Below are positions 7,071 through 11,045 of a stretch of DNA of 56,798 nt, in pieces. Below the pieces are notes generated by a model. The model saw only the letters and a list, made by a program, of their open reading frames with translations, did no database searches and was not told the origin of the DNA. Source of the DNA: Candidatus Latescibacterota bacterium. GTDB lineage: Bacteria > JAAXHH01. The first letter of the stretch is position 1; every line of letters begins with the position of its first letter. A program made the translations under genes and the position numbers. The stretch spans positions 1 to 56,798 of the forward strand of contig JAJEHX010000024.1 in NCBI GenBank assembly GCA_022823465.1, in the 5' to 3' direction.

Positions 7071-8312
7071 CTACCGCTCGCCGATAGGCATCCACCGTCT
7101 GACATGGTCACCCGTGTATACAGATTCCGGCCGGAACAGCCGGTCGACGGCGCGCTGTTCAAAGCAGTGGGCTGCCCAGCCGGCTACGCGTCCTATGGCG
7201 AACATGGGCGTGAAGAGATCGGGATGGAGACCGAGGCCGTTGAGGAGCAGGGCGGTATAGAACTCGACGTTGGTTTGCAGGCGCCTGCCGGGCTTGTATT
7301 CTTCGAGGAGTTCGACGGCGGTTTTCTCGACGTGCAGGGCGAGGGTGTACAGGGCGTGATCCCGGGCGAAGAATGAACGCGCGGCCCGAGAAAGTACATC
7401 GGCCCGCGGGTCGCGAACGCGATACACCGCGTGTCCGAAACCCATGAGCCGTTCCCCCGATTCGAGCTTTTGACGAAGGTAGGATTCGGCGTTATCGGTG
7501 TCGCCGATCGCTTCGAGCATGGACAGGACCGGTCCCGGCGCCCCGCCGTGCAGAGGTCCCTTGAGTGCGCCGATGGCGCCCGTAACAGCCGAGACGAAGT
7601 CGGAACGCGTGGAGACGATGACGCGGGCAGTAAACGTGGAAGCATTCATGCCATGGTCGATCACCGTGTTGAGGTAGGTCGTGAGTGCGCGCACGCGGTC
7701 TCCGCTGCTGTCATCGCCGTCGCTGTCGCCGCCAGGATCGCCGTCGCCACGGTTGTCATCGCCGTCGCCGCCACCAGGGTTGTCGTCGCGGTCGCCGTCG
7801 TCGCCACCAAGGCTGTCACCGCCGTCGCCGCCACGGTCGCCGGGGACTTCACCGGTCAGCATGTACAGCAGGTTGGCGACGTGACCAAGGCCAGAGTCGG
7901 GATCCACCGGTTCTTCGCCCTGGAGAAGGCGCCAGTAGGCTGCCACGACGGTCGGCAGGCCAGCCACAAGGCCCCGGGCATCGGCGTTGTCGTCCCGGGT
8001 GGGAAGGGATGCAGCAGCCGCGCGGACGGCATCGATAACAGGGCGCCGCTCCCTGGCGGCGTTTCGCAGGATGTCGAGCGAGGCGCCGGGGATCCTTCGG
8101 CAGCCGGCCAGTTCCCGTTTGAACCGGCGCAACTCTTCCATGTCGGGCAGCCTCCCACGCCAGAGCAGGTGGACGGTCTCTTCAAAAGAGGCTCTTTCCG
8201 CGTATTCCTGGAGCGGGTATCCCGCGATGACCAGTTCACCGGCCTCGCCATCTACACTGCTGAGCCGCGTCTCCGCGGCAATGACGTCCTTTAGTCCGGG
8301 TGAATATGACAT
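7071..8312 (-). CDS. gltA: Citrate synthase with acidic low-complexity insertion
   Basis: Condenses acetyl-CoA and oxaloacetate to citrate at the entry of the TCA cycle (a methylcitrate role cannot be excluded). At 413 residues it is longer than the usual ~370 of this class because of an insertion at about residues 157-205 made almost only of Gly, Asp, Ser, Asn and Arg. Family motifs are intact: DHGMNASTFTARV, GPLHGGAP, and GFGHAVYRVRDPRAD with the catalytic His and Asp. The insertion falls between LTGEVP and VRALTTYL, in the loop before the first active-site His. ATG at 8312 follows AGGGAG. The gene lies 42 nt downstream of leuB and is probably co-transcribed with it; a second, HTH-fused citrate synthase is divergent 1.5 kb away. 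Confidence 0.93.
   Translation of the reverse strand: MSYSPGLKDVIAAETRLSSVDGEAGELVIAGYPLQEYAERASFEETVHLLWRGRLPDMEELRRFKRELAGCRRIPGASLDILRNAARERRPVIDAVRAAAASLPTRDDNADARGLVAGLPTVVAAYWRLLQGEEPVDPDSGLGHVANLLYMLTGEVPGDRGGDGGDSLGGDDGDRDDNPGGGDGDDNRGDGDPGGDSDGDDSSGDRVRALTTYLNTVIDHGMNASTFTARVIVSTRSDFVSAVTGAIGALKGPLHGGAPGPVLSMLEAIGDTDNAESYLRQKLESGERLMGFGHAVYRVRDPRADVLSRAARSFFARDHALYTLALHVEKTAVELLEEYKPGRRLQTNVEFYTALLLNGLGLHPDLFTPMFAIGRVAGWAAHCFEQRAVDRLFRPESVYTGDHVRRWMPIGER
7698..7844 (-). repeat. Gly/Asp-coding low-complexity insertion in citrate synthase
   Basis: About 147 bp (49 codons) of imperfect trinucleotide and hexanucleotide repeats (GGCGAC/GGTGAC type on the coding strand) inside the citrate synthase gene. 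It is bounded on both sides by Gly-Asp-Arg codons (VPGDRGG ... SSGDRVRA), as if an ancestral GEVPGDRVRALT had been expanded at that point. Repeat purity is highest in the middle, consistent with slipped-strand growth. Confidence 0.8.
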
Positions 8313-8354: not shown

Positions 8355-9434
8355 TCATTCCTTCAACATTTCAACCACCAGGTCACCCATTTCCATTGTA
8401 GAAACCTGTTGTTGGTCTGTGGATGTCCATATATCGGCCGTCCTGTATCCGTCCCCGATCACTTTCCCCACGGCGCGTTCTATGTCCCCGGCGCCTTCCG
8501 GACATCCGAGGCTGTACCTGAGCAGCAGGGCCGCGCTCAGGATCGTCCCGATCGGATTCGCGACGTTCCTGCCTTCGATGTCGTTCGCGCTGCCGTGGAT
8601 GGGCTCGTACAGCGACGTGCCGTCCAGGGAGATTTCCGCGGACGGGACCATCCCGATAGAGCCGACCAGGACCGCCGCTTCATCGCCCAGTATGTCTCCG
8701 AACATGTTGGGCATGACGATCACGTCGTATTCGGAGGGCCTCTGGATCAGGTTCATCGCGCCCGCGTCGACGATTTCATGCCGCGTATCTACATCTGGAT
8801 ATTCCTGCGCCACTTCCTCGACCACGTCGCGCCAGAGCCTGGAGGATTCCAGGGCGTTCCACTTTGACATCGAGGTCAGTTTAGCCCGTCTCTGCCGGGC
8901 CAGTTCGTATCCATGGCGCGCCAGCCGTTCGACCTGGCAATCATAGTACTCGATCGTGTCGACGGCCCGCCTGCCCCGGGGCGTGTCTTCCCTGAATTTC
9001 GGCCGGCCGTAGTACGCACCGCTGGAAAGCTCACGCAATATGATGAAATCGATACCGGTCTCTATGATGTCGTTCTTGACGGCCGACGCATCCTCCAACC
9101 CCGCGTACAGCCTGAATTGTCTCAGATTCGCGTACACGGACAGCTCCTGCCGCAAGCGAATCAGGGCGTAATCGGCCCGGTCGGGCAGATCCAGGTGATC
9201 CCATTCAGGGCCGCCTGCCGCGCCGAACAGGACGGCGTCGCTGCGCCGGCATGTCTCTACAAGTTCATCAGGCAGCGCCACACCCTGCGCATCGATTGCC
9301 GCACCTCCGACCAGGTGGTGGGAGAAATCGAGATCTACCTGACGTTTCTCCCCAACGGCCTTCAGTACTTTCACGGCCTCCCGCGTAATCTCGGGACCTA
9401 TCCCGTCTCCGGGCAATACGGCGATGTGATACAC
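8355..9434 (-). CDS. leuB: 3-isopropylmalate dehydrogenase
   Basis: Oxidative decarboxylation of 3-isopropylmalate to 2-oxoisocaproate with NAD+, third step of leucine synthesis. 359 residues, the usual length. LPGDGIGPE at the N-terminus, the catalytic Tyr in RELSSGAYYG, Lys in SKWNALESSRLW, and the metal-binding Asp residues in VDAGAMNLI and NMFGDILGDEA are present, as is the typical ending LLLRYSLG...GYRTADI. Two usually constant spots differ: RELTGG is RELSSG and DKANVL is SKWNAL, so a related beta-decarboxylating dehydrogenase acting on another 2-hydroxyacid is possible. Start is GTG at 9434 with AAGGAGG 6 nt upstream. Citrate synthase follows in the same direction. Confidence 0.83.
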   Translation of the reverse strand: MYHIAVLPGDGIGPEITREAVKVLKAVGEKRQVDLDFSHHLVGGAAIDAQGVALPDELVETCRRSDAVLFGAAGGPEWDHLDLPDRADYALIRLRQELSVYANLRQFRLYAGLEDASAVKNDIIETGIDFIILRELSSGAYYGRPKFREDTPRGRRAVDTIEYYDCQVERLARHGYELARQRRAKLTSMSKWNALESSRLWRDVVEEVAQEYPDVDTRHEIVDAGAMNLIQRPSEYDVIVMPNMFGDILGDEAAVLVGSIGMVPSAEISLDGTSLYEPIHGSANDIEGRNVANPIGTILSAALLLRYSLGCPEGAGDIERAVGKVIGDGYRTADIWTSTDQQQVSTMEMGDLVVEMLKE

Positions 9435-9552
9435 CTGGCGCCTCCTTGTTCCTCAGAATTTCTGCTTTAGTCCCTTTAGTCCATATTCCCTGGCTGAACT
9501 TTCCTGCTTAAAATGAATAAATCTCTGTTCCAAATAAAACAGGGTTGATATA

Positions 9553-9583
9553 TTGTCAATATTGATTAGTTAATCAATATAAC
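9553..9583 (+). promoter_or_regulatory. Candidate MerR-type promoter with dyad in a 19-bp spacer
   Basis: TTGTCA (9553-9558) and TATAAC (9578-9583) are separated by 19 bp. The spacer and first bases of the -10 hold a perfect inverted repeat, ATATTGATTA / TAATCAATAT (9559-9568 and 9571-9580). A stretched 19-20 bp spacer filled by a dyad is the classical layout of promoters controlled by MerR-family activators. It points towards the HTH-citrate synthase, about 250 bp downstream, whose HTH could bind here. Prediction from sequence only. Confidence 0.5.
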
Positions 9584-9668
9584 TGGACTCGCGCTTTTCA
9601 TGATTCGCTCTTCCACGATTCACTCAGATCCCGGTATATCAGGGGTTCCGTCCACAATCGTTCATTCG

Positions 9669-9806
9669 AGGCAGAGGGTTCCGTGCACCCGGCGCAGAGG
9701 GTTCCTTACGTCCGAGGCAGAGGGTTCCTTACGTCCGAGACAGAAGGTTCCTTTCACCCGAGGCAGAAGGTTCCTTTCACCCGAGGCAGAGGGTTCCGAT
9801 CATGAT
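9669..9806 (+). repeat. 23-bp tandem repeat array (about 6 copies) in the 5' region of the HTH-citrate synthase
   Basis: Six head-to-tail units of 23 bp starting at 9669, 9692, 9715, 9738, 9761 and 9784. Each begins with a form of AGGCAGAGGGTTCC followed by a more variable tail (TTACGTCCG, TTTCACCCG or similar). The core AGAGGGTTCC is best conserved; the last unit decays into the sequence before the ribosome binding site. A further degenerate half-copy (AGGGGTTCCGTCCAC) lies near 9641. The array would be inside the 5' UTR if the promoter at 9553-9583 is used. Confidence 0.88.
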
Positions 9807-9836
9807 TCACTCACCCGCGACAGGAGGATACGCACC

Positions 9837-11045
9837 GTGAAATACAAGCGCCACCTGACGGCCCTGGAGGCGGCCGGCGCACTGAACGTCAGTCCCTCGA
9901 CGCTGTACTCCTACGTGAGCCGGGGCTTGATCCGCTCCGAAGCGAGCGGGACCGGCAGGCGCAAGAGGTTGTACCGCAGCGAGGACGTCGAACGGTTGAA
10001 GGCCCGGAAGAAGGCGCGCCGGAACCCGGGGTGGGCGGCAAGACAAGTGCTGCACACCGGGGATCCCGTGCTGGAGTCGGCGATTACCCTGATCGCAGAT
10101 GAGGGGTTGTACTACCGGGGACGGGATGTGTTGCATCTCGCGTCCGCCGAATCCTTCGAACGCGTCGCAGCCCTGATCTGGACGGGCGACACGAGGTTCC
10201 GGTTTTCCGTTCCACCCAGGAACATCCTGGATGACAGGGCATCGTGGTCGCGTTTGCGGACGCTCAAGCCCGTCGAACGGTTTCAGGCGCTGCTGCCCCT
10301 GGCGGAGGCCGAAGATTTCGCCGCGTATGACCTTCGGCCGGAAGCGGTCGCGGCCACGGGAATGCGGATACTCTGGTTCCTGACCGCGGTTGCCACGGGG
10401 GAGAACCCCTTGGGGGGCATCGCCCGGGCGGTGAGCAGGGCATGGACGGCGGAAAAGGATGGCGCCGCGGAGTTGATCAACACGACGCTGGTGTTGTTCG
10501 CGGACCACGAACTGAACGTCTCGACGTTTACCGCGCGATGTGCCGCGTCGGCCGGGGCGACGCCTTACAGCGCGGTGGGCGCGGGCCTGGCGGCGCTACG
10601 TGGATACAAGCACGGCGCGGCCCATGAGCGTGTCGAAACGCTCTTTCAGGAGGCGGAAGCCAGCGGCAGCGTGGAACAGACGATCGTAGCCCGTCTTCGG
10701 CGAGGCGAGGGGATTCCCGGTTTCGGGCACGCCGTGTACCGGGACGTGGACCCGAGGGCGAAGCTGCTTTTGGAAATGCTGGAAGCGCGCTTTCCGCGAT
10801 CGAAAGACCTGGCACTCGTCCAAGAGATCATCGAAACCACGCACCGGCTCGTTACAGACCGGTACAACATCGACCTGGCGTTGACGGCGCTGGTGCGCGT
10901 ACTGAACATGCCCGAGGGGAGTGGCATGGCGCTGTTCGCGCTGGGACGTTCCGCCGGCTGGATCGGTCACGTCATAGAGCAGTACGAAAGGGACCGGCTG
11001 ATCCGGCCCAGGGCGAAGTATGTCGGGCAGCGGCCGGTGATTTAG
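9837..11045 (+). CDS. Citrate synthase family protein with N-terminal helix-turn-helix
   Basis: 402 residues. The first ~60 form a MerR/excisionase-like HTH (LTALEAAGALNVSPSTLYSYVSRG, then a basic GRRKRLYRSEDVERLKARKK), followed by a complete citrate synthase domain: ADHELNVSTFTAR, YKHGAAHERV and GFGHAVYRDVDPRAK carry the expected His and Asp residues. It could be a DNA-binding enzyme or a citrate-pathway sensor. Start is GTG at 9837, chosen because AGGAGG sits 9 nt upstream; the open frame continues upstream only through the repeat array, which is unlikely to be translated. It is divergent from the leuB-citrate synthase pair and may regulate itself and/or those genes. HTH-citrate synthase fusions are known as an annotated family; their function is poorly defined. 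Confidence 0.88.
   Translation: MKYKRHLTALEAAGALNVSPSTLYSYVSRGLIRSEASGTGRRKRLYRSEDVERLKARKKARRNPGWAARQVLHTGDPVLESAITLIADEGLYYRGRDVLHLASAESFERVAALIWTGDTRFRFSVPPRNILDDRASWSRLRTLKPVERFQALLPLAEAEDFAAYDLRPEAVAATGMRILWFLTAVATGENPLGGIARAVSRAWTAEKDGAAELINTTLVLFADHELNVSTFTARCAASAGATPYSAVGAGLAALRGYKHGAAHERVETLFQEAEASGSVEQTIVARLRRGEGIPGFGHAVYRDVDPRAKLLLEMLEARFPRSKDLALVQEIIETTHRLVTDRYNIDLALTALVRVLNMPEGSGMALFALGRSAGWIGHVIEQYERDRLIRPRAKYVGQRPVI

Follow-up and report, generated by a model that had tools for sequence, protein, structure and literature searches.

A conserved operator upstream of genes for citrate synthases with an N-terminal helix-turn-helix domain in about a dozen bacterial groups

The HTH-citrate synthase locus

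The stretch of DNA that was analysed, here called the window, comprises 56,798 bp from a “Candidatus Latescibacterota” bacterium. It contains a gene on the plus strand (9837..11045) for a protein of 402 amino acids, hereafter HTH-CS, which begins with a GTG codon at 9837 and is preceded by the Shine-Dalgarno (SD) sequence AGGAGG at 9822-9827. The earlier note on this DNA had read the product as a MerR-like helix-turn-helix (HTH) joined to a citrate synthase, and the domain searches agree: the HTH domains MerR_1/HTH_17 (PF13411, E-value 7.4e-8, above the gathering score; PF12728) are followed by the Citrate_synt domain (PF00285, E-value 1e-62). The MerR/Xis-type winged HTH spans residues 6-62 (9852..10022) and the citrate synthase domain residues 76-392 (10062..11012). 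The AlphaFold model (mean pLDDT 91) consists of the winged HTH, a less certain linker helix and the citrate synthase body; helices 48-62 and 64-73 precede the citrate synthase domain, and the linker has a pLDDT of 55-59 in this single-chain model. The modelled HTH aligned with Xis (Z-score 7.8), SoxR (6.8), BldC (6.5) and CarH (6.3), all below 8, which assigns it to a fold class only, and a weak sequence similarity to SoxR and TipA is consistent with these matches.

In structure comparisons, the citrate synthase body matched type II citrate and methylcitrate synthases. The residues H224, H259, H298, R307, D346, R371 and R390 are kept in 108-112 of 112 HTH-CS proteins, and we take them, from the motifs in which they lie, to be the equivalents of H229, H264, H305, R314, D362, R387 and R407 in Escherichia coli. 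Among solved structures, only plain citrate synthases were matched and none that bears an HTH, and we found no description of an HTH-fused citrate synthase or of its operator in the open-access literature. A “citrate synthase-related protein” in Geobacter (PMC2700814) is a methylcitrate synthase candidate and not relevant here.

Divergent from HTH-CS are leuB (8355..9434, minus strand; TIGR00169 above cut-off), which lies beside the operator described below, and gltA (7071..8312, minus strand), which encodes a plain citrate synthase. A gene of this kind is what usually lies divergent from HTH-CS. Tandem repeats in gltA, at 7738-7830, code for a Gly/Asp-rich insertion in this protein. The leader of the HTH-CS gene also holds a tandem repeat, with a unit of 23 bp in 5.7 copies (9667..9797, plus strand). 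Leader repeats are found at the same position in most members of the genus (also L004, L005, L007, L008 and L010), with a unit that differs from genome to genome, 23 bp in the window and 16-18 bp in others; these repeats are fast-changing.

The dyad is the core of a larger operator

Between leuB and HTH-CS, the plus-strand hexamers TTGTCA (9553-9558) and TATAAC (9578-9583), which the earlier note had taken for the -35 and -10 boxes of HTH-CS, are separated by 19 bp (9559-9577), as the coordinates confirm. The dyad said to fill this spacer, ATATTGATTA-GT-TAATCAATAT (9559..9580), is perfect, with two arms of 10 bp around 2 bp, and does fill it, but the fit is not exact, as the dyad extends into TATAAC by 3 bp. 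No other perfect dyad with a gap of up to 10 bp is as long in the whole 56.8-kb window, and equally good dyads arose in 0.06% of sequences from a local Markov model of the same AT-rich 121 bp.

The dyad is the core of an operator, TGTCAATATTGATT-AGTT-AATCAATATA (9554..9581, plus strand), which contains the three half-sites GTCAA, TTGAT and ATCAA and has the consensus TGTCAATMTTGATT-N4/5-AATCAATATA across loci. Its left end is overlapped by an additional, genus-specific inverted repeat, TTGAT-ATATT-GTCAA (9545..9559), which has the form TTGAYATATYGTCAA in relatives and is kept in the same-genus loci that were read.

Conservation of the operator across bacterial groups

To follow the operator in relatives, HTH-CS loci were retrieved with the recognition-helix motif TLY[TSA]YVSRG, so that the sample covers HTH-CS proteins with this type of recognition helix. 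The best 80 matches, many of them from metagenome-assembled genomes (MAGs), span the Chloroflexota, Rubrobacter and other Actinobacteria, Bacteroidota, Deinococcota, Acidobacteria, Gemmatimonadota, Poribacteria and Verrucomicrobiota, as well as a cyanobacterial MAG and alpha-, beta- and deltaproteobacteria. Each locus was scored against TGTCAATMTTGATT-N-AATCAATATA within 450 bp upstream of the gene. A score of at least 17 matches out of 24 was reached in 74 of the 80 best-matching HTH-CS loci; of 656 control segments taken from these loci, one attained it. In three further loci, the site either overlaps the start of the gene (L092) or lies about 1 kb upstream (L069 and L080); in the latter two, an inserted gene separates it from HTH-CS and it still adjoins the divergent citrate synthase. 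The operator is thus found at 77 of the 80 best-matching loci, which represent about 12 groups at the level of phylum or class, so that the search upstream of orthologues proposed in the earlier note finds the dyad conserved.

The identity between groups is 82% and 77% in the two blocks of the site and 25-26% in the flanks (39 loci, 12 groups), and a base-frequency profile of 65 non-redundant sites showed that GTCAA, TTGAT and ATCAA are nearly invariant. The gap measures 4 bp in most groups and 5 bp mainly in alpha- and betaproteobacteria. Three loci (L058, L060 and L065) contain two copies of the operator within one intergenic region. The divergent gene varies among the loci and may encode a citrate synthase, LeuB followed by a citrate synthase, a CoA-transferase III, an HMGL-like protein (similar to homocitrate/isopropylmalate synthase), an MFS transporter, a cupin or other proteins, and the operator stays with HTH-CS whatever this gene is. 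The dyad in the window is one copy of a DNA switch that fronts HTH-CS genes in about 12 bacterial groups, and this suggests that HTH-CS, as an enzyme or as a sensor that resembles one, controls its own gene and the neighbouring gene.

The HTH-CS genes of the Myxococcota (L031-L055) lack the AT-rich operator and have a conserved TCGA-repeat, GTCGAGTCGAGTCGACAATG, upstream instead. The wing of their HTH also differs (TKENRY), and the two differences possibly represent a joint change of protein and DNA.

The operator in the genus of the window

Orthologues of HTH-CS that are 73-88% identical were identified in ten genomes of the same genus; in one of these, a contig end interrupts the gene. In the same-genus loci with upstream DNA, the block TTGAYATATYGTCAATATTGATTA...ATCAAT between leuB and HTH-CS is kept and the remainder of the intergenic region has diverged. 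The closest named record among the best 80 listed is a MAG, Gemmatimonadetes bacterium IRC1_bin_16 (L056).

The genome of the window contains a second site (G000:C31:15336-15360; position 2861 of L172, minus strand), located about 40 bp upstream of thiO, which encodes glycine oxidase (TIGR02352 above cut-off). In those members of the genus that were examined, the thiO site was seen with a gap of 4, 5, 6 or 8 bp. In eight genomes of the genus, here called clade B, the gap of the operator at HTH-CS has changed to 8 bp and the TATAAC hexamer is gone, and the same gap of 8 bp is found at the thiO site and at a few more loci per genome. If one trans-acting protein binds these sites, their spacing would be expected to change in parallel, as it did here. 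Sites of the form ATTGTCAAYNTTGATT-N8-AATCAACAT occur several times per genome in clade B (L164, L166, L169, L170 and L171), near thiO, a gene for a PfkB-type kinase and a rhamnose-mutarotase-like gene. One assembly that is 87% complete (G009) contains the operator upstream of thiO, and HTH-CS was not found in it.

The regulon was searched for with patterns. The strict form, RTCAAYNTTGATTN{4,5}RATCAAY, had 18 matches, one each in 18 of 25 HTH-CS genomes, every one in the HTH-CS locus when its position was compared with the retrieved loci. A slightly relaxed form had 20 matches in 18 of 25 further HTH-CS genomes, all but one at the HTH-CS locus. Both scans together gave 38 matches in 36 of 50 genomes, and 37 of these lie in the HTH-CS locus. 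In a panel of 96 genomes of relatives, the pattern was present in all 12 genomes from the genus of the window and had no match in the 84 genomes outside it. The reversed control pattern had no match in any of the three scans. The near-confinement of the site to the HTH-CS locus, whatever the neighbour, suggests a regulator of almost a single locus, with a site that accompanies its gene.

Promoters at the operator and alternative explanations

The promoter that is conserved at the operator is directed away from HTH-CS. The left half-site, read on the minus strand, includes TTGACA (9554..9559), the -35 box of the divergent leuB-gltA promoter, which abuts the dyad; the candidate -10 box, TATTTG (9531..9536), follows after a 17-bp spacer and is weak in the genus of the window. 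Of 65 loci, 23 have a TAnnnT hexamer exactly 17 bp away, whereas no other spacing is found in more than 2, and this holds in loci with and without a citrate synthase as the divergent partner. The operator is therefore placed directly upstream of the -35 box of the divergent gene, and the dyad lies outside the spacer of this promoter.

The earlier note had suggested a stretched promoter of the MerR type; on this reading, HTH-CS would bind in the spacer of TTGTCA-19-TATAAC, untwist the DNA and thereby activate its own promoter. Promoters of the MerR family do have a spacer of 19 or 20 bp that holds a palindromic site (PMC1526738), a geometry also described in PMC8113463, and the plus-strand distance from TTGTCA to the TATA-like hexamer, 19 bp for a gap of 4 and 20 bp for a gap of 5, matches it, as does the 9-4-9 palindrome. 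Moreover, a TATAT beyond the dyad is partly conserved in the profile of 65 sites, and TATTAC in L002 and TATATT in L003 retain the 19-bp spacing. However, TAnnnT at 19 or 20 bp was infrequent, being seen in 7 of 36 loci and in 3 of 29, which does not exceed its occurrence at 21 or 22 bp, and the hexamer is lost in clade B. In about 20 loci (for example L090, L094, L091, L084, L115 and L124), the start codon of HTH-CS is at the hexamer or within 6 nt of it, so that a transcript from such a promoter would lack the start codon, and in L078 it is the SD sequence that sits where the hexamer falls. The conservation of TTGTCA itself is explained by its overlap with the half-site and with TTGACA on the opposite strand. 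A scan for sigma-70 promoters with spacers of 16-18 bp found none at 9553-9583. A stretched promoter toward HTH-CS is seen in the window and may work there, with a leader of about 250 nt, but as a conserved feature it is weak and incompatible with the start codons in many loci. Activation through it is not supported as the conserved mechanism and is, overall, an unlikely account of the dyad. Where the operator lies over the start of the gene itself (L090, L091 and L092), its position points to autorepression.

Even less probable is that the site belongs to another regulator, for example of the FNR/CRP type, that controls citrate synthase genes. The half-sites of FNR are TTGAT and ATCAA, 4 bp apart in the FNR box, and the identity of these half-sites with those of the operator, together with the thiO site in the assembly in which HTH-CS was not found, would fit such a regulator. 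The distance between TTGAT and ATCAA is 6, 7 or 10 bp here, a spacing on which the identification as an FNR box was rejected, and one or two sites per genome that co-occur with HTH-CS are ill-suited to a global regulator. It could also be argued that the region serves chiefly as a divergent promoter whose -35 boxes overlap, and that the dyad is only a by-product of AT-rich promoter DNA, as the conservation of TTGACA-17-TAnnnT on the minus strand might indicate. This we consider very improbable, given that the most conserved elements, TTGAT and ATCAA, fall outside the hexamers in a region that is otherwise unconserved, and that the same sequence is absent from the 84 other genomes.

Discussion

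The computation yielded an operator that is linked to HTH-CS, a promoter for the divergent gene, and conserved residues. From these we infer, with a probability of about 0.8, that HTH-CS binds the operator and thereby regulates both its own gene and the divergent one, probably in a manner coupled to a ligand. The conservation across groups and the linkage to HTH-CS, which carries the DNA-binding domain shared by the loci, also bear out the suggestion in the earlier note that the dyad belongs to this protein and is placed to control both its own and the divergent genes.

The binding, the autoregulation, the ligand control and the effect on the divergent gene are proposed to be as follows. A dimeric citrate synthase body would place two HTH domains one helical turn apart on TTGATT-N4-AATCAA, with the third half-site, GTCAA, beside them. 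The bound protein would cover or block its own promoter and start region, leading to autoregulation, most likely repression, and would at the same time sit against the TTGACA box of a normal 17-bp promoter that would drive leuB-gltA here and usually a plain citrate synthase elsewhere. Binding of oxaloacetate, acetyl-CoA or citrate probably alters the binding to DNA, which would couple the expression of citrate synthase genes to substrate supply; this effect is predicted because the active-site residues are kept, which also makes it plausible that HTH-CS senses TCA metabolites, as had been suggested. Some observations fit this model less well. The gap between the half-sites varies, from 4 or 5 bp across phyla to 8 bp within part of the genus, and such variation would be unusual for a single dimer; moreover, there are both an operator without an identified HTH-CS (G009) and HTH-CS genes without the operator (Myxococcota).

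HTH-CS resembles the MerR family (MerR, SoxR, CueR, BmrR; CarH; BldC) in its N-terminal MerR/Xis-type winged HTH, in the palindromic 9-4-9 site near a promoter, and in that the gene of the regulator frequently lies divergent from the target and is subject to repression only. It differs in that the effector part is a whole citrate synthase, in that the model appears to lack the long coiled coil of MerR, and in that the dyad is located upstream of the -35 box of a 17-bp promoter rather than within the spacer. Although the HTH is of the MerR/Xis type, filing HTH-CS as a MerR activator would be wrong, according to the promoter test. The fusion of a metabolic enzyme to a DNA-binding domain, and the expected coupling of a substrate level to transcription, are shared with the trigger enzymes BirA, PutA and NadR (and with the enzyme-fold regulators GabR and PdxR). 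The enzyme in HTH-CS is a citrate synthase, for which no such regulator was found in the open-access literature. As compared to the type II citrate and methylcitrate synthases (PrpC, the Thermus citrate synthase and CitA of Mycobacterium tuberculosis), the fold and the catalytic residues are alike, and HTH-CS has an additional N-terminal winged HTH and a shortened, divergent large domain. Since the catalytic residues are kept, HTH-CS may belong to the trigger enzymes, and its mode of action may be that of an enzyme-based regulator.

More broadly, widespread and catalytically competent citrate synthases could be transcription factors in about a dozen bacterial groups, in which the occupancy by oxaloacetate, acetyl-CoA or citrate gates a near-invariant operator and thereby sets the dose of citrate synthase or of a neighbouring CoA/keto-acid enzyme. 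We put this forward tentatively, at slightly below even odds. The operator is highly conserved and rare in each genome, so that the role of a large family of proteins with an odd “citrate synthase” annotation could be tested directly, and the family reaches many culturable species, including members of Paraburkholderia, Agrobacterium, Calidithermus and Pandoraea. Entry into the TCA cycle is catalysed by citrate synthase, and the proposed regulation, if true, would represent a direct feedback from the flux into the cycle to gene expression.
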